From the IMG/VR virus record IMGVR_UViG_3300009154_000076, positions 1 through 52,962 of that record: 52,962 nt of DNA, one strand, 5' to 3'. Origin of the DNA: a virus. A program made the translations under genes and the position numbers. The notes beneath the pieces are model-generated. The model saw only the letters and a list, made by a program, of their open reading frames with translations, was not told where the DNA came from and made no database searches. Of the stretch, positions 2,269-48,875 are shown one piece after another (the first letter of the stretch is position 1; the number at the start of each line of letters is the position of its first letter).

Positions 2269-2297
2269 TTGACTACGCAAGCGTGATCGCGTATAAT
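2269..2297 (+). promoter_or_regulatory. Near-consensus sigma70 promoter for the omega-like gene
   Basis: TTGACT at 2269-2274 and a perfect TATAAT at 2292-2297 are separated by 17 nt. Transcription would begin near 2304, just before the AAGGAG ribosome site (2311-2316) of the ATG at 2322. The GTG at 2283 lies inside the promoter spacer and cannot be the start of this transcript's gene. The match to the host-type consensus marks this as a likely early promoter. Confidence 0.8.
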
Positions 2298-2321
2298 TTT
2301 TGTTTACGTCAAGGAGATGTT

Positions 2322-2522
2322 ATGTTTAGGTTTCCCATAGAAGAAAAAGAAAAAATGTTTGAAAATCGATTTATGCAGGTAATCGTTGCCGCCATGCGGG
2401 CACGTGAACTACGTCGCGGTAATCCACCAAAAATAATTAGTCGAAACGGTGCAGCAGTGACAGCACTTAAAGAAATTGAATTGGGCCATATCGGCGTTGA
2501 ATACTTAGATAAAGTTCGTTAA
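2322..2522 (+). CDS. RNA polymerase omega subunit (RpoZ)-like protein
   Basis: A 66-residue protein that lines up with bacterial omega over nearly its whole length. The NRFMQVIVAAMRAREL segment (residues about 15-30) matches the conserved NRFxLVLVAAxRARQ helix, and VTALKEIELGHI matches the VIALREIxEG signature, followed by LDKVR. In bacteria omega clamps the beta' C-terminus and helps assemble RNA polymerase. A phage copy could replace or supplement host omega and alter promoter choice; that is inference. ATG 2322 is chosen because AAGGAGAT ends 3 nt before it and the promoter overlaps any longer start. It is shorter than E. coli omega (91 aa) and lacks its C-terminal tail. Confidence 0.72.
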   Translation: MFRFPIEEKEKMFENRFMQVIVAAMRARELRRGNPPKIISRNGAAVTALKEIELGHIGVEYLDKVR

Positions 2523-2538
2523 TAGAGAGGAATATACC

Positions 2539-2778
2539 ATGTCTGAAAATAAGAAAAATCGTAGAGTAGCAGATCCATTCAAAACCAAAACTGGCAAAAC
2601 CAGAATGGGGCCATTGAATCGTGAACAACTGATGAAATTTATTGAATCAGCATCCAAGCCCAAACATCGTGCCATGGCACAACGGGTCTATGACCGGAAA
2701 TATGGGCATCTAGTTGTAGAAACTCCGGTGGTAGAGTCAGTGGATACCCAAGAAGTAACTCCCGAAACATCTAATTAA
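2539..2778 (+). CDS. Small basic protein of unknown function
   Basis: A 79-residue protein in the cluster behind the omega-like gene, with an AGAGGAA ribosome site. The first two thirds are rich in Lys and Arg and contain a short predicted helix (REQLMKFIESASK), while the tail from about residue 60 is acidic and rich in Val, Thr and Glu. I recognise no family. Small charged proteins in early phage operons often bind host polymerase or nucleic acid, but nothing here shows that directly. Confidence 0.6.
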   Translation: MSENKKNRRVADPFKTKTGKTRMGPLNREQLMKFIESASKPKHRAMAQRVYDRKYGHLVVETPVVESVDTQEVTPETSN

Positions 2779-2796: not shown

Positions 2797-2985
2797 ATGG
2801 CATACGATATCAGAGCAGTAAAAATTGGCAAAGACATCAAACGTGCAACGTGCATGATCAAAGATAAACATGTGCGTGGAGAATTCTTGCGTAGCTATGT
2901 AAAAATCGCCGAAGATGAAGGCAGGATGCGCAGTAGTCGCAATCGTGGAGATCGTGACACCAAGAGCACCGATGATGGTAAATAA
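2797..2985 (+). CDS. Small basic protein of unknown function
   Basis: A 62-residue protein, third in the small-gene cluster, with a TAAGGAAA ribosome site. It has many Lys, Arg and Asp residues, two cysteine-free helical stretches and a C-terminal Arg/Asp/Lys-rich tail. No family is recognisable. Its short spacing to both neighbours suggests co-transcription with the omega-like gene. Confidence 0.55.
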   Translation: MAYDIRAVKIGKDIKRATCMIKDKHVRGEFLRSYVKIAEDEGRMRSSRNRGDRDTKSTDDGK

Positions 2986-3007: not shown

Positions 3008-3196
3008 ATGACCACACCAGCACCAAAGAAAAGTAAAAATCCATTTATTAACTTGGTTAATGAAGCAAACGCAGCAAAACATGTCCCAGTCACCGATGAA
3101 ACCAAATTGGAGTTGACTGTGCCTAAAGCAGCAAAATTAAAGAATCAAGTACAAATTAACAAACCTACCAAACGCAGCGCAGGTCGGGGTCGTTAA
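3008..3196 (+). CDS. Small Lys/Pro/Ala-rich basic protein of unknown function
   Basis: The 62-residue product starts at ATG 3008, where GAGGAGG lies about 10 nt upstream; an in-frame longer version from 2915 would overlap the previous gene and lacks such a site. Both ends are basic: the N-terminus has a TPAPKKSKNP stretch and the C-terminus ends KRSAGRGR. It may be disordered and bind nucleic acid. It is the last gene of the cluster before the hairpin at 3223-3255. No family is recognised. Confidence 0.6.
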   Translation: MTTPAPKKSKNPFINLVNEANAAKHVPVTDETKLELTVPKAAKLKNQVQINKPTKRSAGRGR

Positions 3197-4215: not shown

Positions 4216-5241
4216 ATGAAACCCACATTACATATCTTATCTAGCCCATACAGTACCGTAAATTTAAACAATAGAATGGATCCATTCTCCATCAGCACAT
4301 TGAAGTTCATCGATTGGATGACTGACTTTGGCTGGAACTGTATTCATTATAGTGTCGCTGGCAGTCAAGTTAATTGCCAGCAAATCCAATGTTTGGATGT
4401 TATCGGCCCAGACAACAATGATAACATTATGAAATACAATACTCGCGCAGCTCACGCAATTGGATTAAACAAAAAGCCCGGTGATATTGCTCTATGTTTT
4501 TATGGCGTGGCCAACAAGGGCGCGGTTGATCCCCATCCCGATATCAGGGTTGTCGAACCAGGAATTGGATATGCAACTAGTGCGGTTTTTGCTCCCTATA
4601 GGGTATTTGTCTCCTATGCCCAACAACATATGTACTACGGTGAACAAAATAAATTAATGTCCCCAAGTTGGTTTGATGCCGTAATACCTAACGGGTTTAC
4701 CCCCACTGAATTTGATTATAACCCAAACAAAGGTGATTACTTCCTGTGTTTTGGGCGTGTTATGGAAACCAAAGGCATACACTTGGCTATTCAAGCCACA
4801 GCCGCCACTGGTAAAAAATTGGTCATAGCTGGACCCGGATCTTTGAGTGATATGGGATATCCCAGTATACCAAGCCATGTTACCATGGTGGGTTTATGCG
4901 ATGCAGAACAGCGTAGAGTATTGATGCGGGATGCCAACGCTATTATCGGGGCCACCTATTATATTGAGCCGTTTGGCAACATGGTAGTAGAGGGATATAT
5001 GAGTGGCACGCCCGCTATCACCACTGATTGGGGAGCATTTGCTGAAACGGTGGTTCATGGTGTAACTGGATTTAGATGTAGGGAATTCAGGGAATTTGTA
5101 CAAGCAATAAACAATATTGATCAGATTAATCCGCAAATATGCCGTGATTGGGCCATGGCCAACTATAGTGATCAAGTTGTCCATGAAAAATTTAATCAAT
5201 ATCTTGAAAAGATTAGTCAGTTGGATTTTTATAGACCATGA
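4216..5241 (+). CDS. GT4-family glycosyltransferase
   Basis: A 341-residue GT-B enzyme. The N-terminal half (1-170) is the acceptor domain. The C-terminal half has the family's marks: FLCFGRVMETKGIHLAIQA (GRxxxxKG phosphate-binding strand), KKLVIAGPG, then IIGATYYIEPFGNMVVEGYMSG, matching the EPFGxxxxEAMxxG motif in which the first Glu contacts the donor, and the GVTGF segment. It retains a nucleotide-sugar donor site and would add a sugar with retention of configuration in the cytoplasm. Its stop overlaps the next gene by 4 nt, so the two are probably coupled. Acceptor unknown. Confidence 0.8.
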   Translation: MKPTLHILSSPYSTVNLNNRMDPFSISTLKFIDWMTDFGWNCIHYSVAGSQVNCQQIQCLDVIGPDNNDNIMKYNTRAAHAIGLNKKPGDIALCFYGVANKGAVDPHPDIRVVEPGIGYATSAVFAPYRVFVSYAQQHMYYGEQNKLMSPSWFDAVIPNGFTPTEFDYNPNKGDYFLCFGRVMETKGIHLAIQATAATGKKLVIAGPGSLSDMGYPSIPSHVTMVGLCDAEQRRVLMRDANAIIGATYYIEPFGNMVVEGYMSGTPAITTDWGAFAETVVHGVTGFRCREFREFVQAINNIDQINPQICRDWAMANYSDQVVHEKFNQYLEKISQLDFYRP

Positions 5242-6005
5242 AAACCGCATTTATAGTCACTAGTAGTATTGAAGTCAACAATCAATATCCACTGAGTTAC
5301 ATTGGCACCAGAACTGCATTTACTGCTGATGAGAGACTACGGCAAACTGTCATGACTATTAATAGTCTGAATTTTTTGAGTAATTCAGACACGGTAATCT
5401 ATTTGATAGACACCAGTGAAAATTACCAAGAGTATCTGGAATTTTTCAGGTACCAAGGGAATTTAAGATTTATCAGTGTCAAAGAAGAAATGCCAGAAAT
5501 ACACAATGAGGTTACCACACATCCCAATAAAAGTAGGTGTGAAACGTTAATTATTAGCAATTTTTTAAGGAAATATGCCAAAGAATTGGATCAATTTGAC
5601 TATTTTGTTAAATTAACTGGCAGATATTCACTAGACACCACATTTGATCAAACTGTATTCAATCAAGACAATTTAGATAAGATGTTTTTTAAGACGACAT
5701 GGAGCTGGGAATGGGTCGATGGTTGGGGAGATTCTTATCAGATGGTGGATCAACGTGCATATCAGGGTGATAATCGATTAAATCAATATTGCACGGGTGT
5801 GTTTGCATGGGGACGAGAAAAAACAGCATATATGCTAGAAATCTTTACTGTGGTGGCATCAATTTTAAATGTGCCAAGATTTATTCATTATGATATAGAA
5901 ACTCTAATATATTACTTTACTGGATCAGCCAGACATGATATAATAGAAACAACATGGCTGGTATGTGGTTGGTACGGTGCCGACGGGAAATTTTTTAGGT
6001 ATTGA
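5238..6005 (+). CDS. Putative GT-A-like glycosyltransferase of unknown specificity
   Basis: A 255-residue protein that starts inside the previous stop (ATGA). Features fit a small GT-A fold: an N-terminal strand (AFIVTSSIEV), a DTVIYLIDTS strand, and FDYFVKLTGRYSL, a segment common in viral and bacterial proteins annotated as glycosyltransferases that sits where the DxD region would be. A canonical DxD is not obvious. Trp-rich residues around 150-170 could line an acceptor pocket. The call rests on the motif and the neighbours. Confidence 0.5.
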   Translation: MKTAFIVTSSIEVNNQYPLSYIGTRTAFTADERLRQTVMTINSLNFLSNSDTVIYLIDTSENYQEYLEFFRYQGNLRFISVKEEMPEIHNEVTTHPNKSRCETLIISNFLRKYAKELDQFDYFVKLTGRYSLDTTFDQTVFNQDNLDKMFFKTTWSWEWVDGWGDSYQMVDQRAYQGDNRLNQYCTGVFAWGREKTAYMLEIFTVVASILNVPRFIHYDIETLIYYFTGSARHDIIETTWLVCGWYGADGKFFRY

Positions 6006-6012
6006 TAATATT

Positions 6013-6561
6013 ATGAGTGTGACATTAATTATAGTTGATGATTTTTATTCTAATCCAGATGCTGTGCGAAATTTTGCACTATCTCAGGAATTTGGAGTGC
6101 GTGGTAACTACCCCGGATCAAGGACTCTGCCATTTTTGACTGATGATGTCAAGGAAGCAATACAAGATAAACTACAGTTTGCTGGTCCAGTCACTGACTG
6201 GTTAGAGCATAGTGGTTACACTGGCTGTTTTCAAATGACCACGGCCATTGATAGAACATGGATCCACAGTGACAGCTATAATACATGGGCTGGTGTATGT
6301 TATCTCACTCCAGATGCGCCCTATACTGGCGGCACTGGGTTGTTTCGCCACAAAGCCACCGGTGAACACCGACGTGTCACAGATGATCACGAAGGATATG
6401 ATTATACCAAATGGGATTTATTTGATCGCATTGGTAACAAATACAACCGATTAATCTTGTACCGTGGTGATTTATTTCACGCTAGCTTGGACTATTTTGG
6501 GGATAATCCACAAAATGGTAGATTGTTCCAGACATTTTTCTTTAACACGGCCAGAATCTAG
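6013..6561 (+). CDS. 2OG-Fe(II) oxygenase-like protein (DUF6445-type)
   Basis: The 182-residue product begins MSVTLIIVDDFYSNPDAVR, an opening typical of the phage DUF6445-type family. His85 and Asp87 (IHSD) and His156 (FHAS) form the expected HxD...H iron triad, and Arg170 (NGRLFQTFFF) is placed to bind 2-oxoglutarate. It probably hydroxylates a small molecule, sugar or protein side chain. I start at ATG 6013; the in-frame upstream extension to 5965 would overlap the previous gene. Sitting between glycosyltransferases, it may act in the same modification pathway, or on virion protein. Confidence 0.7.
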   Translation: MSVTLIIVDDFYSNPDAVRNFALSQEFGVRGNYPGSRTLPFLTDDVKEAIQDKLQFAGPVTDWLEHSGYTGCFQMTTAIDRTWIHSDSYNTWAGVCYLTPDAPYTGGTGLFRHKATGEHRRVTDDHEGYDYTKWDLFDRIGNKYNRLILYRGDLFHASLDYFGDNPQNGRLFQTFFFNTARI

Positions 6562-6563
6562 CG

Positions 6564-7355
6564 ATGACGTACAAGGTTTGTCAAGTCATATTTTCTGCAA
6601 ATAGAGTAGAATATTTGACCAGAACATTAGAATCCCAAAAGTTTTTGGATTTCTCTGGATGTTCTGTTGATAAAATCTTTATTGATGATTTGCCTCTTAA
6701 CCGCAATGATCGGTTGATCACTGATTTGGTACGCGCCTATGATTACCAAGAACTGTATTTGCATCCTGTAAACCTTGGACTTAGTGTAACTTGGACTGAA
6801 TTCTGGAATTTGATCAGGGGTCGTGATTATGATTATATCTGGCACCAAGAAGACGATGTGGAGATATTGGAGCCTGTAAAAATTGTTGATCTGATCGATC
6901 TACTGAAATCTAACCCATCTCTTGCGCAGATAGTACTCAAACGCCAAGCTTGGTATAGTAATGAGTTGCCAACACAGGCATTGGCCGATGATATCATTGT
7001 TGACATCGGTAGAATTGAAATTATGAATCAGCTGGTTTTTTCTCCCATGGCCAGTCTATATAGTATAGACCGAGTGCGGTTTGATTATAGTTCTTGGTAT
7101 CGTGAGAATTATCCAGATACCAATTTACATTCTATTAATTTTAACGAAGGTATGATTGGTGTAGCACTTCATGGTGCTCAACAATTGATTCCAGCTCGTT
7201 TAAAAAATCCGGCTGGTCATAATCTTATAAATCACATTGGTGAATATTTTTCTGGTCGCCGTGTGCTGCCAGATGAACCGGGCTATCAGGCATTTGCTGG
7301 ATATGATCCAGATAAAAAATATAATAGCCGTGATGGCAGCGAGTATCAATCATGA
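6564..7355 (+). CDS. Putative GT2-type glycosyltransferase
   Basis: A 263-residue protein with GT-A features: an N-terminal strand and helix (VCQVIFSANRVEYLTRTLES), the conserved turn HPVNLGLSVTWTEFW, and YIWHQEDDVEI, the metal-binding region. The C-terminal half (from about 140) holds the likely acceptor site. It follows the oxygenase by 2 nt and its stop overlaps the next gene by 4 nt. Substrate unknown. The family assignment is firmer than for the 5238 gene because the HQEDD motif and the N-terminal layout are both present. Confidence 0.65.
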   Translation: MTYKVCQVIFSANRVEYLTRTLESQKFLDFSGCSVDKIFIDDLPLNRNDRLITDLVRAYDYQELYLHPVNLGLSVTWTEFWNLIRGRDYDYIWHQEDDVEILEPVKIVDLIDLLKSNPSLAQIVLKRQAWYSNELPTQALADDIIVDIGRIEIMNQLVFSPMASLYSIDRVRFDYSSWYRENYPDTNLHSINFNEGMIGVALHGAQQLIPARLKNPAGHNLINHIGEYFSGRRVLPDEPGYQAFAGYDPDKKYNSRDGSEYQS

Positions 7356-8068
7356 TTGAATTTGATTGGTCTAAATTGACCCATGCAGAATTATATTCAA
7401 TTATGTATGCCATTACGCCAAAAGTAGAAAATAGGCAGTTGCTTCCTGAACAATTCCACCGCATCGCCGCCGCCAATCTGAGAAAATACTTGCCCATAAA
7501 GGTGGTAATGCAATATAACAAAATAGTTCGACCAAGGCTGGTCTACATGGGCGGAGCATACTATCCCTCGTCTGATCAAGATGGTAAGAAATGTATAGAA
7601 ATAAATTTCAATTACGATCTATCAAGGGCTCCGCTGAATCTTACTCGATTGAGAATGCACAGAATTTCTGTGTTATTTGCCGATACCATGTTACATGAAA
7701 TCATACACATGAAGCAATATCGCTCAAGAGATCACGAAGCAAACTCAAGTTACCCCAGCCAAGTTCCCAATCAGAAAAAACGAAATGAACAATCTTATTT
7801 GGGAAATCCAGATGAAATTGAAGCATACTCATTTAACATTGCATGTGAATTGCTTAGAAAATATAAATTAGATCAGCAAAAAGCATTGGAACATCTTGAC
7901 TTGGAATATCGTCCAGCCAAAGATAACTTTAGCAAATATTTGAGAATTTTTGATAAAGATTACTCCCATCCTGTGATAATCAAATTAAAAAAATTAGTAA
8001 GATATTATATACCTCGTGCTGCATCAGTTGGCAAGCCATATACCAGATCAAAATGGCTGAATAATTAA
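7352..8068 (+). CDS. Zinc metallopeptidase-like protein (HEIIH)
   Basis: A 238-residue protein with MLHEIIHMKQY at about 113-123, an HExxH zinc motif, followed by GNPDEIEAYSFN near 151-161 where Glu155 or Glu157 could be the third ligand. It is mostly charged with no signal peptide or membrane segment, so a cytoplasmic or virion location is likely. The basic C-terminus is rich in Lys and Arg. It overlaps the previous gene by 4 nt (ATGA). The layout resembles SprT-like or phage-associated metallopeptidases, but I cannot place it in a named family. Confidence 0.5.
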   Translation: MIEFDWSKLTHAELYSIMYAITPKVENRQLLPEQFHRIAAANLRKYLPIKVVMQYNKIVRPRLVYMGGAYYPSSDQDGKKCIEINFNYDLSRAPLNLTRLRMHRISVLFADTMLHEIIHMKQYRSRDHEANSSYPSQVPNQKKRNEQSYLGNPDEIEAYSFNIACELLRKYKLDQQKALEHLDLEYRPAKDNFSKYLRIFDKDYSHPVIIKLKKLVRYYIPRAASVGKPYTRSKWLNN

Positions 8069-8075
8069 AAAATAG

Positions 8076-8104
8076 TTGCAATTTTTTAACAAATGCTGTA
8101 AAAT
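8076..8104 (+). promoter_or_regulatory. Sigma70-type promoter upstream of the 8128 gene
   Basis: TTGCAA (8076-8081) and TAAAAT (8099-8104) are separated by 17 nt, each one mismatch from consensus. A start near 8111 leaves a short leader with an AAGGAAAA ribosome site before ATG 8128. It lies in the only substantial gap in this stretch and probably drives the long operon from 8128 onwards. Confidence 0.7.
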
Positions 8105-8127
8105 ATATCCATTCATCAAGGAAAATT

Positions 8128-8895
8128 ATGAAAAACAACAAACTTAATATCCCAACCAAAAAACCATTGGCAGCTCAGGTAGAAGTAGCTACTGGATCTC
8201 CATTATCCCCACGGTTAAACGTTAACAAACCTGCCAGTTCACCACCTCCCACTGTAAATACTACTGGCAAACGTCCCAGTGTTATGATTGCTGTGCCTGC
8301 TATGGAAATGGTCAACGCTGAGTTTGCTCAACATTTGACCATGGCCGCTGCCAACATGGTAGCCAATGGCATCCGAATCAACTGTGCATTTAATATTGGC
8401 TCTGTGGTTACCATCGCCCGACGCAATCTAGTTGATATTTTCTTAAAAAGCGATTTTGATTATATCTGGTGGGTTGATTCGGATATGAAATTCCCAATTG
8501 ATGCCCCCATGCGATTGTTGGCACGCAATAAAGATGTGGTAGGCGCAAACTATCGTCGTCGTCGGTTTCCTAATCCCAACTTTACTGGAATGATGGGCAC
8601 TAGTGGATCATTTAGTGAGTTTCAAACCACTGACAATAGTCCAGACATGGAATTGATTGATGTCCTTCCCCATGGCATGGTATTAGTCAAACGTGAAGTT
8701 TATCTAAAAGTACCTCAGCCACATTATCTACAAGAATATATTCCAGAATATAATCTTGAGATTGGAGAAGATATTTACTTTTGCCAGCAAGCACAAAAAG
8801 CCGGATATCAACTCTGGGTTGATCAACAGCTTAGTCGTGAAGTAGCACATATTGGTATCTTCCATTTCACGTATAACTTATCAGTACCACAGTAA
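8128..8895 (+). CDS. GT-A-type glycosyltransferase with a Pro/Ser-rich N-terminal tail
   Basis: A 255-residue protein. Residues 1-50 are rich in Pro, Ser, Thr and Lys and probably disordered. From about residue 51 the domain opens with VMIAVPAMEMV. YIWWVDSDMKFP is a clear DxD region, followed by DVVGANYRRR, typical of the phage and Anp1-like GT-A enzymes annotated as glycosyltransferases. It would use a nucleotide sugar and a divalent metal. It begins a new transcription unit behind a sigma70-type promoter. Acceptor not predictable. Confidence 0.65.
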   Translation: MKNNKLNIPTKKPLAAQVEVATGSPLSPRLNVNKPASSPPPTVNTTGKRPSVMIAVPAMEMVNAEFAQHLTMAAANMVANGIRINCAFNIGSVVTIARRNLVDIFLKSDFDYIWWVDSDMKFPIDAPMRLLARNKDVVGANYRRRRFPNPNFTGMMGTSGSFSEFQTTDNSPDMELIDVLPHGMVLVKREVYLKVPQPHYLQEYIPEYNLEIGEDIYFCQQAQKAGYQLWVDQQLSREVAHIGIFHFTYNLSVPQ

Positions 8896-26642: not shown

Positions 26643-27671
26643 ATGATCAAACGTATTGGTTTTGCCTGCAAGTTGATTGACAATTTGGATCAAGTCGACG
26701 GGATCAAACCCACCGATGATTGCAAACGGTACAACACCAGCACTACAACGGCTGCTTGGCTAAATAGACAGACCAAGGATGTGGCCGTTAACAAGCTGTG
26801 GGAATTAATGCAGCATAACATCGAATCTGCCAGACTTCTTGTAGAAAAGGTGGGTACGTTTGATGAAAATCTTAGGATGGTACGATTATCTAGCGATTTG
26901 CTGGCTATGTACACTGAGCCAAGCTGGCGTTGGTTTTATCAACAATCAGACGTCAGGGATTACTGTCAACGAGAATTTCTCCGAGTGGGAAATTCAGCTC
27001 GCCAGAATAATGTTAGGATCAGCTTCCATCCTGGGCAGTGGTGCGTTCTTGCTAGTTCTAATCCAGAAATAGTAACCCGCAGTCTTGAGGAGTTTGAGTA
27101 TCATGTCGCAATGGCCAGTTGGATGGACTTTGGAAGACGCTTCCAAGACATCAAAATCAACATCCACTTATCGGGCAAGCAAGGAACTCAGGGATTCAGA
27201 GATTCCTACCAAAGACTCTCCCCAGAAGCTAGGAATTGTATTACAATCGAAAACGACGAAATAAGTTACGGACTTGAAGATTGCTTGTCGATCAGTGATA
27301 TTGTGCCTATCGTACTAGACCTACATCATAACTGGGTCAAGGAAGGAACATATATCGACCCCAACAGTGACAGTATTAAAAGAGTAGTTGATAGTTGGCG
27401 CGGAGTACGTCCGACCATGCATTACAGTGTATCCAGAGAAGATTATCTGATTGATCACGATCCAACTATTATGCTAGACCATTCTAAATTGCTATCTCAG
27501 GGATTTAAAAAATCTAAACTAAGAGCCCACAGTGATGGTTATTGGAATATGGCCATCAATCAGTGGGCTCTTAATCATTTAGATTGGGCAGACATTATGT
27601 GCGAGTCAAAATCAAAGAATCTCGCCAGTGCTGCCCTATATCAGCAAGCCAAAGAATTAAACTTTCTTTGA
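26643..27671 (+). CDS. uvsE: UV damage endonuclease (UvdE/UvsE family)
   Basis: A 342-residue TIM-barrel nuclease. Family segments in order are RIGFACKL, SSDLLAMYTEPSWRWFY, RISFHPGQWCVL, INIHLSGK, IENDEISYGLED, VLDLHHNW, RAHSDGYWN and IMCESKSKN. The His, Glu and Asp residues in these segments bind the three metals. UvdE nicks DNA 5' of UV photoproducts and some other lesions, starting alternative excision repair. It ends in a 15-nt tail-to-tail overlap with the minus-strand gene. A UV repair enzyme fits a phage of sunlit surface habitats. Lacks an obvious ribosome site. Confidence 0.85.
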   Translation: MIKRIGFACKLIDNLDQVDGIKPTDDCKRYNTSTTTAAWLNRQTKDVAVNKLWELMQHNIESARLLVEKVGTFDENLRMVRLSSDLLAMYTEPSWRWFYQQSDVRDYCQREFLRVGNSARQNNVRISFHPGQWCVLASSNPEIVTRSLEEFEYHVAMASWMDFGRRFQDIKINIHLSGKQGTQGFRDSYQRLSPEARNCITIENDEISYGLEDCLSISDIVPIVLDLHHNWVKEGTYIDPNSDSIKRVVDSWRGVRPTMHYSVSREDYLIDHDPTIMLDHSKLLSQGFKKSKLRAHSDGYWNMAINQWALNHLDWADIMCESKSKNLASAALYQQAKELNFL

Positions 27672-31477: not shown

Positions 31478-34400
31478 ATGACCACAATCAGTAACTTACC
31501 TTCTTTAAACAATCTGACTAGCGACACCGCTAGCAGTATTCTTATTCCTGCTGAGGATACGACCTCTAATCCGTCAGTTGCAAGAAAAATCACGGTTGCT
31601 CAAATAGCTAGTCTATCATCGGGATTTACTGGATCTGCCGGCGACCGTGGCGGTCTGGGTTTCTCTGGTTCCCGTGGCCCTGCCGGTTTCAATGGATCAA
31701 TAGGCGGACTTGGTTACACTGGTAGTGCAGGTAAAGATGGTGCATCGATTACAGTAAAAGGGCAAGTAGCGTCTTTTGTCAATTTGCCAGCAAGTGGCAA
31801 TAATTTTGGTGATGCCTATATCGCAGCAGATACTCTGTTTTTGTGGGTTTATACCAATTCTAGCGTTTCTGGAACATTTAACGGATTTATCAATGCGGGA
31901 CCCATCGCACAAGGAAGTCCAGGACGTCCCGGTATAGACGGACCTCAAGGTTATACCGGATCAGTAGGCCCCAAAGGCGATACTGGGTCATCAGGAGAAC
32001 AAGGATATACTGGATCAATTGGCGCACAGGGGCCACAAGGAGCATTGGGCTTTACAGGATCATCTGGTGCGGGATCATTGGGATTTACGGGTTCAATTGG
32101 TAAAATTGGATTTACTGGATCATTAGGTGGCACTGGATTTACTGGATCATTTGGATTTCAAGGATCACTAGGTTACACAGGATCAGTGGGTGATATTGGC
32201 TATACTGGATCCATCGGCGGCACTGGATTTACTGGATCAGGCGGTCTTGGATACACGGGTTCAGTTGGATTTGGATTCACTGGATCAATTGGCGGACTTG
32301 GTTACACAGGTTCAATTGGTCCATCTGGCCCAGCCGGCACCAGCGTGCGTGTTGTCGGAAGCGTGGCTGATAATGCTTCGTTATTGTCTTTTGCTGCAGG
32401 CGGACTAAATCTAGGCGACGGCGTTATACAAGAAGATACCGGACATCTACAAGTTTGGGATGGTAGTCAATTTGTTGATGTTGGCCAAATTAAAGGTGAT
32501 ATTGGATTTACCGGATCAATAGGTGGTACTGGTTATACTGGTTCCACCGGAGCAGCTGGAACTAGTATAAGCATTGTTGGTTCTGTTGCTGATTCACAGG
32601 GGTTGGCAGCATTTAACACAGCCATTTTGGTAGCTGGAAACGGAATTTTTCAGCAAGATACCGGGGATTTACATTTATGGAATGGAAGCTCGTTTGATAA
32701 TGTAGGACGAGTACGAGGCGATTTAGGATATTCCGGATCAATCGGAGGTCTCGGATATTCTGGATCGGTTGGATCGCTGGGCTATACCGGATCTATTGGT
32801 GCCAGTTTAACTATCGTTGGCAGTGTTGCAGATAGTGCATCGTTATTATTTCTTAATACCAACATATTTTCTGCTGGCAATGCAGTCATACAACAAGACA
32901 ATGGACATTTACAGGTTTGGAACGGCCGTAGTTTTACTGATGTTGGCCAAATTAAAGGAAATTTAGGTTATACCGGTTCACAAGGAGACCAAGGTATTAC
33001 CGGATTTACCGGATCGTTTGGTGATCAAGGATTTACGGGTTCAGCCGGATCAAATGGTACAAGTGTACACATTATAGGCACAGTAATAGACAACGTTGAT
33101 CTATTACTCATCAATACTAGTATACTATCAATTGGTGATAGTTTCATTCAGCAGGATACCGGACATTTACAAATATGGAACGGTAGTTCATTTAATAACG
33201 TTGGACAAATCAGAGGCGACATTGGTTATACTGGATCGTTTGGGGATCAAGGATATACTGGTTCACGCGGTGATACTGGATTTACCGGATCTTACGGCGA
33301 CTTAGGTTATACTGGCTCATTTGGACTTCGTGGTTTTGCCGGATCTCAAGGAGATCAGGGATTCGCTGGATCCCGTGGTGATTTGGGCTATACAGGTTCA
33401 TATGGGGATCAAGGATATACTGGATCAATTGGAAATCAGGGATACTTTGGATCTCGCGGTGATCAAGGTTACACTGGCTCTCAGGGAGATCAGGGATTTA
33501 CGGGATCAGTTGGCGCTCAAGGTTTTACTGGATCTCAAGGAGATCAAGGTTATACCGGATCGTTTGGTGACCAAGGTTATGCCGGATCATTCGGAGAACA
33601 AGGATATACCGGATCTTTGGGGGGTCAAGGATTTACCGGATCTCATGGAGATTTAGGTTATACCGGTTCATTTGGTAGTCAAGGTTTTACTGGATCGTTT
33701 GGTAATCAAGGTTACACTGGATCAGCTGGAACCAGTTTAAGTATTGTTGGTACTGTTCCAAACACTGTAAGTTTATCACTATTTGACACATCTGGCTTGT
33801 CAATAGGCAATGGACTTATTCAGCAAGATACTGGTCATCTACAAGTATGGAACGGCGTTTCATTTGATGATTTTGGTCAAATTAAAGGTGATAACGGATA
33901 TACCGGATCTGCTGGCCTTCAGGGATTTACTGGTTCAACCGGACCACGTGGACTAGCTGGTGTATTTGGTGAACAGGGATATACTGGTTCTTACGGTGAC
34001 CAAGGATATACCGGATCTTTGGGAGGTCAAGGATTTACTGGTTCTCAAGGAGACCAAGGTTATACTGGATCATTTGGTGATCGGGGATATACTGGATCTA
34101 TTGGTATCACTGGTTACGTTGGTTCTATAGGTCCTCAAGGTCCAGCTGGAGTTAACGGAACCAGTATACAGATAATTGGCAGGGTTCTCAACAGTGCAGG
34201 TTTGGCGTCTTACAATACGGTTGGGTTGCCAATCGGTGATGGATTGATTCAAGAAGATACTGGACACCTACATATATGGAATGGCACTTCATTTAATGAT
34301 GTTGGTCAAATAAGAGGCGACCGTGGCTACGATGGGTCAATTGGTATCCAAGGTTATACTGGATCGTTTGGAGATCAAGGTTATACAGGTTCATTTGGTA

Positions 34401-37400
34401 TTCAAGGATACACAGGATCCCAGGGGGTTCAAGGTTATACTGGATCCCAAGGAGATCAAGGTTATACCGGATCCCATGGAGACTTGGGTTATACCGGTTC
34501 ATATGGAGACCAAGGTTATACCGGTTCATTTGGTAGTCAGGGTTATACTGGATCCCATGGAGACTTGGGTTATACCGGTTCATATGGAGACCAAGGTTAT
34601 ACCGGTTCATTTGGTGATCAAGGATATACTGGATCGTATGGAGACCAAGGTTATACCGGTTCCCATGGGGACTTGGGATATACAGGTTCTTTTGGTAATC
34701 AAGGATTTACCGGTTCATTTGGTGATCAAGGATATACCGGCTCACAGGGAGACCAAGGTTATACCGGATCCTTTGGAGATCAAGGTTATACTGGTTCACA
34801 GGGAGACCAAGGTTATACTGGTTCCCACGGAAATGTAGGATATACTGGATCATTTGGTATTCAAGGATTTACTGGTTCATTGGGTGCTCAAGGATTTACT
34901 GGTTCATTGGGTGCTCAAGGTTATACGGGATCCTTTGGAGATCAAGGATACACTGGATCTCTGGGAGACCAAGGTTATGCTGGATCAGTTGGACCCCAAG
35001 GCCCAACTGGCAGAGATGGAACCAGTGTACGTATAATTGGCACTATTCCGGATAATGCTGGATTATTATCTTATAACACTGCTGGATTACTAATTGGCGA
35101 TGGTCTAATACAAGAAGATACTGGACACTTCCAAGTATGGAACGGAGGTTCATTTAATGACATTGGTCAAATAAAAGGGAATTTAGGATATACCGGATCT
35201 ATAGGAATTCAAGGATATTCAGGATCAATTGGTGCTCAAGGTTATACTGGATCATTTGGTGAACAAGGATATACCGGATCTATAGGAATCCAAGGATATT
35301 CAGGATCGATTGGTGAACAAGGTTATACTGGATCAGTTGGTGAACAAGGTTATACTGGATCAGTTGGTATCCAAGGATTTACTGGTTCATTGGGTGATCA
35401 GGGTTACACCGGATCTCACGGAGATTTGGGTTATACTGGTTCCCATGGAGATTTTGGTTACACTGGTTCATATGGAGATCAAGGATACACTGGTTCATAT
35501 GGAGATCAAGGATATACAGGATCGTTTGGTGAACAAGGATTTACTGGATCATTTGGAGATCAAGGATACACTGGATCATTTGGACTACAAGGATATACTG
35601 GTTCCCACGGCGATTTTGGTTATACTGGTTCATATGGAGATCAAGGTTATACTGGTTCATATGGAGATCAAGGTTATACTGGTTCCCATGGAGACTTGGG
35701 CTATACAGGATCATACGGTGACCAAGGTTATACCGGATCCCAAGGAGATCACGGTTATACCGGATCACATGGAGATTTTGGTTATACTGGTTCTCAAGGA
35801 GATCAAGGTTATACTGGTTCTCAAGGAATTCAAGGTTATACTGGATCAGTGGGATCTCAAGGCCCAGCTGGCGCAGATGGAACTAGTATACGTATAATTG
35901 GAACCGTCCAAGATGCAGTAGAATTATCATCATATATCACAACGAACTTATTAATTGGTGATAGTCTTATTCAAGAAGACACCGGTCATATGCAAGTATG
36001 GAATGGTGGATCTTTTAATAATATCGGTCAATTAAAAGGTGATCGCGGATATACCGGATCCATTGGAATTCAGGGATATGACGGTTCACTGGGAGACCAA
36101 GGTTATACTGGATCGTTTGGTGAACAAGGTTACACAGGATCTTTGGGGAACCAAGGTTATGCTGGTTCATTGGGTGCTCAAGGTTATACTGGTTCAGTTG
36201 GTGATCAAGGTTATACTGGTTCAGTTGGTGATCAAGGTTATACTGGTTCAGTTGGTGATCAAGGCTACACTGGGTCTCGTGGGGATTTTGGTTATACTGG
36301 CTCATATGGTGATCAAGGTTATACTGGTTCATTCGGTATCACAGGATATGATGGTTCACGGGGAGATCAAGGATTTACAGGTTCATATGGAGATCAAGGT
36401 TATACTGGATCCCATGGAGATTTTGGTTATACAGGATCATATGGAGATCAGGGTTATACAGGATCTCATGGTGATTTAGGATATACTGGATCATACGGGG
36501 ATCAAGGTTATACAGGATCATATGGAGATCAAGGGTACACAGGATCTCATGGTGATTTAGGATATACTGGATCATTTGGTATTCAAGGCTTTACCGGATC
36601 ACATGGAGATTTTGGTTATACTGGTTCCCATGGTGACTTGGGTTATACTGGTTCATATGGAGACCAAGGTTATACCGGTTCATTTGGTGATCAAGGTTAT
36701 ACTGGATCGGTGGGATCTCAAGGACCAGCGGGCGCAGATGGAACTAGCATACGCATAATTAGAACAGTCCAAGATGCAGTAGAATTATCATCTTATAATA
36801 CAGCAGGATTATTGATCGGGGATAGCCTGATTCAAGAAGACACCGGCCATCTACTAGTATGGAATGGTGGATCTTTTAACAATATCGGTCAATTAAAAGG
36901 TGATCGCGGATATACCGGATCTATTGGAATCCAAGGATATTCTGGATCGATTGGGGATCAGGGATACACTGGTTCATTTGGTGTTCAGGGATTTACCGGA
37001 TCTCAGGGTGACCATGGTTATACTGGATCATTGGGTATCCAAGGTTATACCGGATCATTTGGTGATCAGGGATATACTGGTTCAGTTGGTATTCAAGGAT
37101 ATGACGGATCTCTGGGAGATCAAGGTTATACCGGTTCGCATGGGGATTTTGGTTATACTGGTTCGTATGGAGATCAGGGTTATACCGGTTCATTTGGTAT
37201 TACTGGATATGACGGTTCACAAGGAGATCAAGGTTATACTGGATCATTTGGTGCTCAAGGTTATACTGGTTCCCACGGTGATTTTGGTTATACCGGATCA
37301 TTTGGTATTCAAGGTTATACCGGATCCCACGGTGATTTAGGATACACAGGTTCTCAGGGCGATCAAGGATATGATGGTTCTCAAGGAATCCAAGGATTTA

Positions 37401-39958
37401 CTGGTTCTCATGGTGACTTGGGTTATACAGGATCATATGGGGACCAAGGTTATACAGGTTCTCAAGGAGCTCAAGGTTATACTGGTTCCCATGGAGACTT
37501 GGGTTATACCGGTTCATATGGAGATCAAGGTTATACAGGTTCTCAAGGAATCCAAGGTTATACTGGATCAGCAGGGTCTCAGGGACCAGCTGGTGCGGAT
37601 GGAACCAGTATACGTATAATTGGCACTGTAGAGAATGCCGCAGAATTATCATCGTACAATACAACCACGCTATTAATTGGTGATAGTCTAATTCAAGAAG
37701 ATACTGGCCATATGCAAGTATGGAACGGTGGCTCTTTTAATAATATTGGTCAATTAAAAGGTGATCGTGGATACACCGGATCTATTGGAATTCAGGGATA
37801 CTCAGGATCCCATGGAGATTTAGGTTATACCGGTTCATTTGGATTAATTGGTTATTCTGGATCTGCTGGACTTCAAGGATTCACCGGTTCATTTGGTATC
37901 ACCGGATATGCCGGCTCAGTTGGTGACCAAGGCTATACAGGATCATATGGAGACCAAGGTTATGCCGGATCTCGTGGAGATTTTGGTTTTACTGGTTCCT
38001 TGGGTGGTCAAGGATTTACCGGATCTCATGGTGACTTGGGTTATACCGGGTCATATGGAGATCAAGGATTTACTGGTTCCTTGGGTGGTCAAGGATTTAC
38101 CGGATCTCATGGTGACTTGGGTTATGCCGGGTCATATGGAGATCAAGGATTTACTGGATCATTTGGTGGAACTGGATATACTGGATCTTTTGGCCTACAA
38201 GGATATACCGGATCACTGGGATTACAAGGATTTTCCGGTTCTGTTGGAAATCAAGGTTATAATGGATCAGTTGGTTATACCGGGTCAGCTGGAGCTGATG
38301 GCTATAATGTAAAAGTTATCGGAACCGTTCCAAATAATACTGGTTTGATCAGTTACAATACCACTAATTTATCAATTGGCGACGGTCTAATACAAGAAGA
38401 CAATGGACATTTCCAAGTATGGAATGGCACATCTTTCAATGATGTGGGTCAAATAAAAGGTGACATTGGATATACTGGATCGATAGGGGTCTTGGGTTAT
38501 TCTGGATCGATTGGTGGACTTGGATTTACTGGTTCGGTTGGTCCTATAGGATATACCGGATCTATTGGAGATCAAGGTTATACTGGATCACTTGGTGGTC
38601 TTGGATATACTGGATCGGCCGGAACTAGCGTAAACATTGTTGGCAGCGTGCCAAACGCCGCAAGTCTGTTAGCTTATGACACATCAGATTTCTTGAAAGG
38701 TAACAGTCTCATACAAGAAGACACCGGACATCTTCAATGGTGGAACGGACTTTCATTTACTGATGTTGGTCAGATAAAAGGTGATATTGGCTATACTGGA
38801 TCTCTTGGTGGAACTGGATATACTGGATCATTTGGGTCTATTGGATATACCGGTTCACAAGGTTATACAGGGTCACTAGGGGATCAGGGATATACTGGTT
38901 CGTTTGGTAACCAAGGTTATTCTGGATCGTATGGAGATCAAGGCTACACTGGATCCGTTGGCGTTCAAGGTTATACTGGATCACTTGGTGGAACCGGGTA
39001 TACTGGATCTCATGGTGACTTAGGTTATACCGGTTCATCTGGAGATAGAGGACCAGCTGGTGGATCCGGAACAAGTTTAAGCATTGTTGGGTCAGTAGCA
39101 GATGCTGCAGGATTGGCAGCTTACGATTCAACCACATTGGGGGTTGGTGATTGCCTGATTCAAGAAGATACCGGACATTTACAGTTTTGGAATGGCAGTG
39201 CATTTAATGACGTTGGCAAAATAAGAGGCGATTTAGGATATACCGGTTCATATGGGGATCAAGGTTATACTGGATCACTTGGTGGAACTGGATATACTGG
39301 ATCATTCTCAGGAACAACATCATTACCGTTAATCACCACCAACACCACCACATCCACCTCGACTACAACTGGTGCACTCGTTGTGGCCGGAGGTGCTGCG
39401 ATTGGTGGAGATATTTACATTGACGGAAGCGCATATGTCAACGGCATCATTGTAATTAACGGATCTTACTCATCCACTACTTCGACTCATTATACATTTG
39501 ATCAGAGTCTAAACACCACTGATTTAGTTACATTTGCTGGACTTTCGGTGCATGGTAATATTACCGCAACTGGCGATATTACTGCACATTTCTCTGATCA
39601 ACGTTTGAAAAATATACTGGGAACCATCGCCAATCCATTAGAAAAAATAATGGCAATAGACGGTATATATTACGAATCAAATCAGGTAGCTCGGTCCCTG
39701 GGCATTAATGATACTGAAAAAGTACGTGTTGGTGTAATAGCCCAACAAATTCAAAAAGTATTACCAGAGGTCGTTAAATCAGCACCAATTGATCGTGCCA
39801 CGGATGAAAATGGTCAAGAATATTCAAAATCTGGAGAAAATTACCTCACAGTTCAATATGATTTATTGGTGCCTTTGTTAATCGAAGCTATCAAAGAACA
39901 GCAGGGAATGATTACCCAATTATCCGATGCTATAAATAGATTGACAAATAAAGAATAA
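31478..39958 (+). CDS. Giant collagen-like tail fibre with S74 chaperone, 2826 aa
   Basis: After an N-terminal segment (about 1-45), Gly-X-Y triplets fill most of the protein in 9-residue units of type GYTGSxGxQ. Thirteen similar modules of about 60 residues (TSxxIIGTV...GHLQVWNGxSFNDVGQIKGD), plus one divergent one near residue 88, interrupt them. From about residue 2610 a beta-rich stalk follows, then a peptidase S74/endosialidase-type intramolecular chaperone (FSDQRLKNILGTIANPLEKI ... [15 protein letters not shown]), which trimerises and usually cleaves itself off. It is probably a long, host-contacting fibre. Pro is scarce in the triplets, unlike animal collagen. Confidence 0.8.
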   Translation: MTTISNLPSLNNLTSDTASSILIPAEDTTSNPSVARKITVAQIASLSSGFTGSAGDRGGLGFSGSRGPAGFNGSIGGLGYTGSAGKDGASITVKGQVASFVNLPASGNNFGDAYIAADTLFLWVYTNSSVSGTFNGFINAGPIAQGSPGRPGIDGPQGYTGSVGPKGDTGSSGEQGYTGSIGAQGPQGALGFTGSSGAGSLGFTGSIGKIGFTGSLGGTGFTGSFGFQGSLGYTGSVGDIGYTGSIGGTGFTGSGGLGYTGSVGFGFTGSIGGLGYTGSIGPSGPAGTSVRVVGSVADNASLLSFAAGGLNLGDGVIQEDTGHLQVWDGSQFVDVGQIKGDIGFTGSIGGTGYTGSTGAAGTSISIVGSVADSQGLAAFNTAILVAGNGIFQQDTGDLHLWNGSSFDNVGRVRGDLGYSGSIGGLGYSGSVGSLGYTGSIGASLTIVGSVADSASLLFLNTNIFSAGNAVIQQDNGHLQVWNGRSFTDVGQIKGNLGYTGSQGDQGITGFTGSFGDQGFTGSAGSNGTSVHIIGTVIDNVDLLLINTSILSIGDSFIQQDTGHLQIWNGSSFNNVGQIRGDIGYTGSFGDQGYTGSRGDTGFTGSYGDLGYTGSFGLRGFAGSQGDQGFAGSRGDLGYTGSYGDQGYTGSIGNQGYFGSRGDQGYTGSQGDQGFTGSVGAQGFTGSQGDQGYTGSFGDQGYAGSFGEQGYTGSLGGQGFTGSHGDLGYTGSFGSQGFTGSFGNQGYTGSAGTSLSIVGTVPNTVSLSLFDTSGLSIGNGLIQQDTGHLQVWNGVSFDDFGQIKGDNGYTGSAGLQGFTGSTGPRGLAGVFGEQGYTGSYGDQGYTGSLGGQGFTGSQGDQGYTGSFGDRGYTGSIGITGYVGSIGPQGPAGVNGTSIQIIGRVLNSAGLASYNTVGLPIGDGLIQEDTGHLHIWNGTSFNDVGQIRGDRGYDGSIGIQGYTGSFGDQGYTGSFGIQGYTGSQGVQGYTGSQGDQGYTGSHGDLGYTGSYGDQGYTGSFGSQGYTGSHGDLGYTGSYGDQGYTGSFGDQGYTGSYGDQGYTGSHGDLGYTGSFGNQGFTGSFGDQGYTGSQGDQGYTGSFGDQGYTGSQGDQGYTGSHGNVGYTGSFGIQGFTGSLGAQGFTGSLGAQGYTGSFGDQGYTGSLGDQGYAGSVGPQGPTGRDGTSVRIIGTIPDNAGLLSYNTAGLLIGDGLIQEDTGHFQVWNGGSFNDIGQIKGNLGYTGSIGIQGYSGSIGAQGYTGSFGEQGYTGSIGIQGYSGSIGEQGYTGSVGEQGYTGSVGIQGFTGSLGDQGYTGSHGDLGYTGSHGDFGYTGSYGDQGYTGSYGDQGYTGSFGEQGFTGSFGDQGYTGSFGLQGYTGSHGDFGYTGSYGDQGYTGSYGDQGYTGSHGDLGYTGSYGDQGYTGSQGDHGYTGSHGDFGYTGSQGDQGYTGSQGIQGYTGSVGSQGPAGADGTSIRIIGTVQDAVELSSYITTNLLIGDSLIQEDTGHMQVWNGGSFNNIGQLKGDRGYTGSIGIQGYDGSLGDQGYTGSFGEQGYTGSLGNQGYAGSLGAQGYTGSVGDQGYTGSVGDQGYTGSVGDQGYTGSRGDFGYTGSYGDQGYTGSFGITGYDGSRGDQGFTGSYGDQGYTGSHGDFGYTGSYGDQGYTGSHGDLGYTGSYGDQGYTGSYGDQGYTGSHGDLGYTGSFGIQGFTGSHGDFGYTGSHGDLGYTGSYGDQGYTGSFGDQGYTGSVGSQGPAGADGTSIRIIRTVQDAVELSSYNTAGLLIGDSLIQEDTGHLLVWNGGSFNNIGQLKGDRGYTGSIGIQGYSGSIGDQGYTGSFGVQGFTGSQGDHGYTGSLGIQGYTGSFGDQGYTGSVGIQGYDGSLGDQGYTGSHGDFGYTGSYGDQGYTGSFGITGYDGSQGDQGYTGSFGAQGYTGSHGDFGYTGSFGIQGYTGSHGDLGYTGSQGDQGYDGSQGIQGFTGSHGDLGYTGSYGDQGYTGSQGAQGYTGSHGDLGYTGSYGDQGYTGSQGIQGYTGSAGSQGPAGADGTSIRIIGTVENAAELSSYNTTTLLIGDSLIQEDTGHMQVWNGGSFNNIGQLKGDRGYTGSIGIQGYSGSHGDLGYTGSFGLIGYSGSAGLQGFTGSFGITGYAGSVGDQGYTGSYGDQGYAGSRGDFGFTGSLGGQGFTGSHGDLGYTGSYGDQGFTGSLGGQGFTGSHGDLGYAGSYGDQGFTGSFGGTGYTGSFGLQGYTGSLGLQGFSGSVGNQGYNGSVGYTGSAGADGYNVKVIGTVPNNTGLISYNTTNLSIGDGLIQEDNGHFQVWNGTSFNDVGQIKGDIGYTGSIGVLGYSGSIGGLGFTGSVGPIGYTGSIGDQGYTGSLGGLGYTGSAGTSVNIVGSVPNAASLLAYDTSDFLKGNSLIQEDTGHLQWWNGLSFTDVGQIKGDIGYTGSLGGTGYTGSFGSIGYTGSQGYTGSLGDQGYTGSFGNQGYSGSYGDQGYTGSVGVQGYTGSLGGTGYTGSHGDLGYTGSSGDRGPAGGSGTSLSIVGSVADAAGLAAYDSTTLGVGDCLIQEDTGHLQFWNGSAFNDVGKIRGDLGYTGSYGDQGYTGSLGGTGYTGSFSGTTSLPLITTNTTTSTSTTTGALVVAGGAAIGGDIYIDGSAYVNGIIVINGSYSSTTSTHYTFDQSLNTTDLVTFAGLSVHGNITATGDITAHFSDQRLKNILGTIANPLEKIMAIDGIYYESNQVARSLGINDTEKVRVGVIAQQIQKVLPEVVKSAPIDRATDENGQEYSKSGENYLTVQYDLLVPLLIEAIKEQQGMITQLSDAINRLTNKE
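31742..39250 (+). repeat. Fourteen 60-residue modules interrupting the collagen array
   Basis: Modules start at 31742 (divergent), 32339, 32561, 32801, 33059, 33731, 34160, 35021, 35882, 36743, 37604, 38303, 38624 and 39071. Each reads about TSxxIxGTV, a variable 20-residue part, then GDxLIQEDTGHLQVWNG and SFNDVGQIKGD. A similar one is in the next gene at 40870. The repeated Trp and Gly-Asp pattern suggests a compact beta domain, maybe sugar-binding. Confidence 0.75.
31920..39315 (+). repeat. 27-bp tandem repeat array encoding 9-residue collagen units
   Basis: The DNA repeats with a 27-bp period, typified by GGTTATACTGGATC followed by 13 variable bases. Unit types include GYTGSFGDQ, GYTGSHGDL and GYTGSYGDQ. 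Neighbouring units differ by synonymous codon changes. Array lengths between modules often differ by multiples of 9 residues. This is a likely site of slippage or recombination. Confidence 0.9.
34160..37603 (+). repeat. Four exact 861-bp (287-residue) super-repeats
   Basis: Module starts at 34160, 35021, 35882, 36743 and 37604 are each separated by 861 bp. The modules at 35882, 36743 and 37604 are nearly identical, but the collagen triplets between them differ in order. Other module spacings in the gene vary (74, 80, 86, 224, 143, 233, 107 and 149 residues). Confidence 0.85.
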
Positions 39959-47621: not shown

Positions 47622-48875
47622 TTAATTATAATATGCAACTTGTCCAAATGGAGGAACTATAGAATCACTGCCATGTATAATAAACAATGTGTCACAGTAA
47701 TCAGGGTTTCCAAAAGAATCCCCGGGCATTCCGTCCGTGAACATGACAAACTTTTTGGGTTGAATATCATTCTCTTCCATGAATTCCCAATTACACATGA
47801 ATAATGTTCCACCACCGCCCTTGACCTCATAAGCTACTAGATCTGCGGAGTTGTCTTTGGTAAATTTCTCATATCCATAAACTTGAGTATCAAATGTCCA
47901 CAAATCAATATTGAAATCAGTATATTCATCCATGATACCACTGACTTCACTCAAAAAATCTTTGGCCTGACGATCACTAATACTTCCACTCATATCAATG
48001 GCAATACTAATATCAATGGTTTCCTCATTGACCATTCCGGGTAATATTGCCCCACATTGTTGACTTTTACGATTGGGACGAGTGAAACTATAATTACTTT
48101 TAATAATACTCTGAATATTCATGCGCAACAATTGACGCCAATCCATTTTTGGATTAGTAAAAGCATTGATCATTCTGGCGATACCTGCTGGAACTTTGCC
48201 CGCTCCAGCACTCTGTGCAGCAGCAACGGTGGCTTCTTTTATTTCATCACGAATTTTCTTTCGTTCTTCAGCAGATATTTTTGGTCGACCAGTGCTATTG
48301 CCATCTGGGCCATCCTCACCGCCATCACCGTCACCATCCCCTTCACCATCCAAGTGCTCATCAAGAAGTTCACCCAGAGAGCTGATGTCAATTTTAATTG
48401 CTTGTTTTTCTAAATCTTCATAGATTTTTTCATAACTCCAACCGCGATATTTGTCATCTTGAAAAATATTAATCCATTTTGGCGCATTGCCGATTTTCTC
48501 ATCCTTGAGAATTTGATTGACTGCAAAATCAGCAGCAATGTTGCTTAGTTGCGGATCACGCTTGTCTCTGCGACCCATGTGATCAAACACGTTGTGTAAA
48601 ACTTCATGAGCAAACCCAAATATGACTTCACTAGGAGTCAATCTATCGACAAAATCATTATTATAATAGAAAGTACGACCATCAGTGGCCAAAGTGGGTA
48701 ACCAATCAGTGGCATCAACCAGCTTCATACGGGTGGCCAAGTTTCCAAAAAATGGATGACGGATCAATAACGCAACCCGAGCTGTTATCAACTTTTCAAT
48801 AATTGCATTTTTTTGTTCCGGCGTAAATGTTTTTGTTTGCAGTTTTTTGGTTTTTTCAGACTTCATCACCGCCAT
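47622..48875 (-). CDS. VWA-domain metallopeptidase-like protein (DUF2201 type)
   Basis: A 417-residue protein. HEVLHNVFDH (about 90-99) is an HExxH zinc motif in a metallopeptidase-like N-terminal domain. A Gly/Asp-rich spacer (178-195) follows. The C-terminal VWA-like domain has the metal site motif DMSGS (294-298) and TDGMPGD near 380. Such proteins pair with MoxR ATPases, as here, where the ATPase gene lies just upstream. The pair may remodel a protein complex or insert metal. It has its own perfect sigma70 promoter at 48906-48934 and a GAGGA site before ATG 48875. Confidence 0.78.
   Translation of the reverse strand: MAVMKSEKTKKLQTKTFTPEQKNAIIEKLITARVALLIRHPFFGNLATRMKLVDATDWLPTLATDGRTFYYNNDFVDRLTPSEVIFGFAHEVLHNVFDHMGRRDKRDPQLSNIAADFAVNQILKDEKIGNAPKWINIFQDDKYRGWSYEKIYEDLEKQAIKIDISSLGELLDEHLDGEGDGDGDGGEDGPDGNSTGRPKISAEERKKIRDEIKEATVAAAQSAGAGKVPAGIARMINAFTNPKMDWRQLLRMNIQSIIKSNYSFTRPNRKSQQCGAILPGMVNEETIDISIAIDMSGSISDRQAKDFLSEVSGIMDEYTDFNIDLWTFDTQVYGYEKFTKDNSADLVAYEVKGGGGTLFMCNWEFMEENDIQPKKFVMFTDGMPGDSFGNPDYCDTLFIIHGSDSIVPPFGQVAYYN

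Follow-up and report, generated by a model that had tools for sequence, protein, structure and literature searches.

The window, that is, the whole stretch of 52,962 nucleotides that was analyzed (positions 1 to 52,962 of the IMG/VR virus record IMGVR_UViG_3300009154_000076), is a fragment of a phage genome. Judged from its sequence and a predicted fold, positions 2322-2522 of the plus strand encode a true homologue of the omega/Rpb6 subunit of RNA polymerase. Phylogenetic analysis places the protein in a large, separate phage family and indicates that it is not a single captured gene; the family is widespread in giant uncultured phages and is apparently undescribed. The preferred reading, with a probability of roughly 0.7, is that this phage-lineage omega is expressed early and, as a replacement subunit, docks on host beta'.

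The open reading frame starts with an ATG at 2322 and ends with a stop codon at 2520-2522, and its product is 66 aa long (MFRFPIEEKEKMFENRFMQVIVAAMRARELRRGNPPKIISRNGAAVTALKEIELGHIGVEYLDKVR). The product matches PF01192 (RNA_pol_Rpb6) with 33.4 bits (E 4.7e-8; curated cut-off 26) and TIGR00690 (NCBIfam rpoZ) with 27.5 bits (cut-off 23.6); the score against the stricter NF001579 is 15.3, below the cut-off of 58. A profile made from Pseudomonadota omegas only gives 47 bits, compared with 14 bits for the best of 2000 shuffles, and a sequence search of the PDB with the protein returned omega chains (E 3e-5). The AlphaFold2 model, built with 70 relatives, has a mean pLDDT of 80 and a pTM of 0.65 and contains the omega helices. 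The PDB matches listed for this model come from RNA polymerase complexes and are their omega chains, with TM-scores of up to 0.76; the Foldseek probability is about 1.0, whereas the E-values, owing to the short length of the protein, reach no better than 0.005-0.2. The original prediction had named the product omega from its letters, which the profile matches and the modeled helices both bear out. All three sequence motifs quoted in its favor are present; the closing LDxVR did not hold up as a family signature, since these columns read L-x-[KR] in the phage family and are variable in bacterial omegas. Residues R26, R28, A48, L49, E51, I52 and G55, which are common to bacteria and phages, are kept in the window protein, and such conservation of core residues is the pattern expected if selection preserves beta' binding. 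Met-Gln stands in place of the near-invariant Asp18-Leu19. A terminal branch of 0.88 marks the window copy as divergent; as it also lacks Asp18-Leu19 and has an odd N-terminus, it could be specialized. Its lineage is otherwise known only from one contig of 99.98% identity.

The gene content identifies the contig as a phage related to the PA5oct-like jumbo phages. The window encodes long tail-fibre-like proteins, proteins with virion structural matches, an exonuclease (phrog_107), a phrog_1314 protein, thymidylate synthase and DHFR. An AAA ATPase matches phrog_1297, a jumbo-phage ATPase family, with an E-value of 1e-103 and is 51% identical to the ATPases of PA5oct-group jumbo phages of Pseudomonas, the next-closest being those of Sinorhizobium phage Phosso and Agrobacterium phage Atu_ph07. 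No gmk-rpoZ-spoT context is found around the omega gene, in agreement with the earlier claim that it is phage-encoded. An Rfam scan of the window gave no match, and no tRNA genes are present in this fragment. A 2826-aa protein (31478-39958, plus strand) consists mostly of GYTGSxGDQ/GFTGS repeats and is probably a giant tail fibre; its C-terminal end resembles a tail-fibre intramolecular chaperone. A 342-aa protein (26643-27671, plus strand) looks, by eye only, like the UV damage endonuclease UvsE, and a cluster of glycosyltransferase-like genes (4216-8895, plus strand) adjoins the omega cassette and is in part similar at the DNA level to another omega locus (L058).

IMG/VR was scanned with the window protein, which gave 58 loci, and by a broader search, from which the best 80 of 431 candidate relatives were kept. 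About 130 distinct contigs that were read encode the same type of omega, several of them 260-525 kb in length, and all 26 records tested passed the PF01192 cut-off. Loci were chosen by the VTALKEIE motif, by which its apparent conservation is inflated. A tree was calculated from 55 phage representatives (<80% identity), the window protein and 74 bacterial omegas (73 from Pseudomonadota and one from B. subtilis); the B. subtilis sequence of the tree, like the E. coli omega of alignment A2, was entered by hand. Based on only 75 columns and a bacterial sample that is nearly all Pseudomonadota, the tree joins 54 of the 55 representatives and the window protein in one clade apart from the 74 bacterial omegas (SH-aLRT 100, branch length 1.04), and it reveals no donor of this clade within the bacteria. 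The sole representative outside the clade, L054, has a long branch and an unsure placement. Position 29 is Glu in 55/55 phage omegas and Gln in 69/74 bacterial ones; Lys43, present in all 74 bacterial sequences, is absent from the phage group, which usually has Arg59 and Tyr61. The window protein shares Glu29 and Tyr61 with the phage family, has Gly at position 43, and has Val59 at the position where Arg59 is usual. The median net charge is +6 in phage omegas and -4 in bacterial omegas. Among 263 close pairs dN/dS has a median of 0.11 and does not exceed 0.28, values of purifying selection that apply to the family, the window copy's own lineage comprising only the near-identical contig; the low median implies that the family is functional and under constraint.

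A sigma-70-type promoter, TTGACT-N17-TATAAT, is located upstream of the gene at 2269-2297 (plus strand), with TTGACT at 2269-2274, a spacer of 17 nt and TATAAT at 2292-2297. It is followed by the ribosome-binding site AAGGAG at 2311-2316 (plus strand), 5 nt ahead of the ATG. Both elements lie exactly where they had been placed before, and the description of the promoter as near-consensus is accurate (11 of 12 consensus matches). Two exact copies of the pattern TTGAC-N18-TATAAT are present in the window, where 0.08 would be expected, and each lies just upstream of a gene; the second copy is a perfect TTGACA-N17-TATAAT at 48934-48906 (minus strand), ahead of the phrog_1314 gene (47622-48875). 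Promoters with at most 1 mismatch of 12 were found not more than 150 bases upstream of omega in 12 of 55 relatives (6 of them perfect, all with 17-nt spacers), compared with 0.1 in shuffles and 5% in random windows of the same loci. Omega is therefore often under strong host-type promoters. Its expression would probably be early, and it may serve to control the host polymerase.

Host omega (rpoZ) is dispensable in E. coli, and the gain to the phage is for that reason not obvious. In the proposed mechanism the host sigma-70-type promoter would drive omega, probably early, and the 66-aa protein, predicted to fold like omega, would dock on host beta', either adding to host omega or replacing it. 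Host beta' is proposed as the binding partner because the phages appear to be without a beta' of their own. Once bound, the protein would help to assemble or stabilize the polymerase in the infected cell and would give it properties chosen by the phage. In E. coli, omega serves beta' as a chaperone, and without omega the polymerase is distributed differently in prophages (PMC5811629). It is conceivable, but rather unlikely, that the phage protein is instead an inhibitory decoy, which would bind host beta' or assembly intermediates and block host transcription without forming a working polymerase. The early-type promoter, the small size, the altered surface seen in the shift of net charge and the unusual N-terminus of the window copy would all suit a decoy, and small phage inhibitors of host transcription are known. 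However, the conserved core is omega-like, with no added inhibitory domain, and the omega phages seem to rely on the polymerase of the host, as no beta' was found in the omega-carrying contigs searched and host RNAP is needed by most jumbo phages (PMC13282480).

The gene that follows omega (2539-2778, plus strand) encodes a 79-aa basic protein, and phmmer located relatives of it no more than a few kb from omega in L018, L158, L162 and L173; the protein has no family match over the curated cut-off in Pfam, PHROGs or NCBIfam. It is followed by the gene for a 62-aa basic protein (2797-2985, plus strand), which carries the motif RAVK...KR...HxRGxFxRS in alignment A4 (KAVK..K..KR.A...D.H.RG.FIRS in the relatives) and is a recurrent neighbor of phage omegas. 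Of 12 strong pairs of this partner with omega, found by searching whole records chosen partly because the partner lay nearby, 11 are within 5.6 kb and on the same strand, the exception being 37 kb away. About 12 of the 55 representative loci hold the partner, which is frequent but not universal. It has no Pfam, PHROG or NCBIfam match, and its predicted fold comprises two helices (pLDDT 70) with no PDB match of value. Because of its linkage to omega, this partner probably acts in the same process. The last of the short genes (3008-3196, plus strand), an ORF for another small basic protein of 62 aa, has a phmmer relative only in the near-identical contig L002. An earlier remark on small basic proteins encoded with omega was apt, as the protein at 2797-2985 recurs beside it.

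A contig of 524,565 bases (L169, L283) carries omega twice; both copies have a 62-aa partner of their own and lie in tRNA arrays of similar order. The contig encodes a single phrog_1297 ATPase, which disfavors a simple join of two complete genomes; the two omegas could reflect either a block duplication or an assembly chimera. In L183, L186, L022, L149 and other loci omega is located inside arrays of up to 35 tRNAs in 9-12 kb. A 475-aa DUF2828/DUF7788 protein resembling RNA-binding proteins of the Ro60/TROVE type recurs near omega, on the same strand, in L191 (offset +1409) and 12 other loci.

Of the 35 loci longer than 9 kb, 33 have at least 3 tRNA genes near omega (median 14), and tmRNA is present in 9 of the 55 representative loci. 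From this setting omega could be seen as part of a general host-mimic expression kit of tRNA arrays, tmRNA and omega, which would offset the degradation or shutdown of host genes and give omega no special regulatory role. The window fragment is without tRNA genes, however, and the omega sequence has diverged in phage-specific ways, so that this explanation is considered unlikely.

Searches with the beta' profiles PF04997 and PF00623, which are positive in 14/14 control genomes, gave no match in sets of 26 and 27 records, several of them 340-525 kb in length and the larger set including two cultured phages; very divergent phiKZ-type subunits could escape such searches, and records may be incomplete. 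Omega-carrying phages appear from these searches to be without their own beta'. That omega is a subunit of an unrecognized phage-encoded multisubunit RNA polymerase is very improbable: such enzymes are carried by jumbo phages of other groups, but those described have no omega homologues and bind no omega stably (PMC13282480), and neither beta' profile found a match in contigs of up to 525 kb.

No genuine phage omega was found with four omega queries among 50,697 deposited phage records. The matches obtained were rejected as relatives and read as bacterial, as unannotated E. coli-like sequences or as weak; 'Acinetobacter phage MD-2021a' was rejected as a carrier because the gene lies in a gmk-rpoZ-spoT context, which indicates bacterial contamination. 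Two deposited 'phage' records, L060 (CAKLQH020000003.1) and L061 (MG065686.1), hold bacterial DNA, namely the gmk-rpoZ-spoT locus and, in a Campylobacter phage record, an E. coli-like rpoZ. PF01192 had no match in PA5oct, Phosso, Atu_ph07 or phage G, which are relatives in culture; no omega family above noise was found in PHROGs, and no relative with VTALKEIE in the bacterial genome collection. The BFVD contains one clear relative, A0A6J5T227 from an uncultured Caudovirales phage (TM 0.83, 39% identity), so a phage omega is already deposited under the automatic name 'DNA-directed RNA polymerase'; no functional description of it was seen. No study of a phage-encoded omega was found in the open-access literature, and phage omega goes unmentioned in a jumbo-phage review from 2026 (PMC13282480). 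Contaminating bacterial DNA, or a host gene that was captured recently and has no function, is what the deposited 'phage' matches examined would suggest, but for the present family it is refuted by the phage nature of the window and its relatives, the separate clade with its branch of 1.04, the dN/dS of 0.11 and the lack of a VTALKEIE-bearing relative in the bacterial genome collection.

If omega acts as a replacement subunit on host beta', the most testable property conferred on the polymerase would be the loss of ppGpp control at Site 1. Residues 2-5 of E. coli omega are required at ppGpp Site 1, where they coordinate ppGpp (PMC7676912). In the window protein these residues are FRFP versus the canonical ARVT, and the N-terminal A-R-V/I-T of Site 1 is thus absent from it. 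The canonical N-terminus is present in 22/55 phage omegas compared with 73/73 omegas of Pseudomonadota, 3 of the latter only after correction of the start codon. Loss of Site 1 control is proposed because residues 2-5 are not conserved while the core is kept; since many relatives keep ARIT, the family as a whole cannot have this loss as its function. At least some of the phages may have a relaxed or changed ppGpp response. As a bolder and clearly tentative extension, a large group of jumbo phages might swap a host core subunit for its own omega, accompanied by a dedicated small basic partner, which would yield a hybrid polymerase blind to ppGpp at Site 1 and favoring phage transcription.

Giant phages in public metagenomes commonly carry this omega family, which is absent from PHROGs and, to the extent tested, from genuine phage genomes among the deposited records; annotation pipelines based on these sources therefore overlook it. 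Phage omega would offer a direct means of testing whether phages escape ppGpp and what omega adds to the polymerase; the latter question is of long standing, since E. coli can do without rpoZ.

With bacterial RpoZ (PF01192, TIGR00690) the phage protein shares the fold, the four helices and the core NRFxxVxxAAxRAR plus AL[KR]EI. Unlike bacterial RpoZ, it is encoded by a phage gene under its own promoter, outside gmk-rpoZ-spoT and outside the bacterial rpoZ clade; phage omegas have Glu29 for Gln, lack Lys43 and are basic overall, and the window copy is without the ppGpp-contacting residues 2-5. The Rpb6-like proteins of giant eukaryotic viruses, e.g. Marseillevirus, are also virus-encoded representatives of the omega/Rpb6 fold, with weak scores. 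These viruses encode complete polymerases, whereas the omega phages appear to be without one. T4 AsiA and gp33, T7 Gp2, Xp10 P7 and phiEco32 gp79 act on the host polymerase, and the host core polymerase is the proposed common target; none of these proteins is known to be a homologue of a core subunit, whereas phage omega is one. Known phage strategies act on the entire host polymerase, which they inhibit, redirect or replace, and a phage lineage that supplies one core subunit and borrows the rest would represent a different form of takeover.
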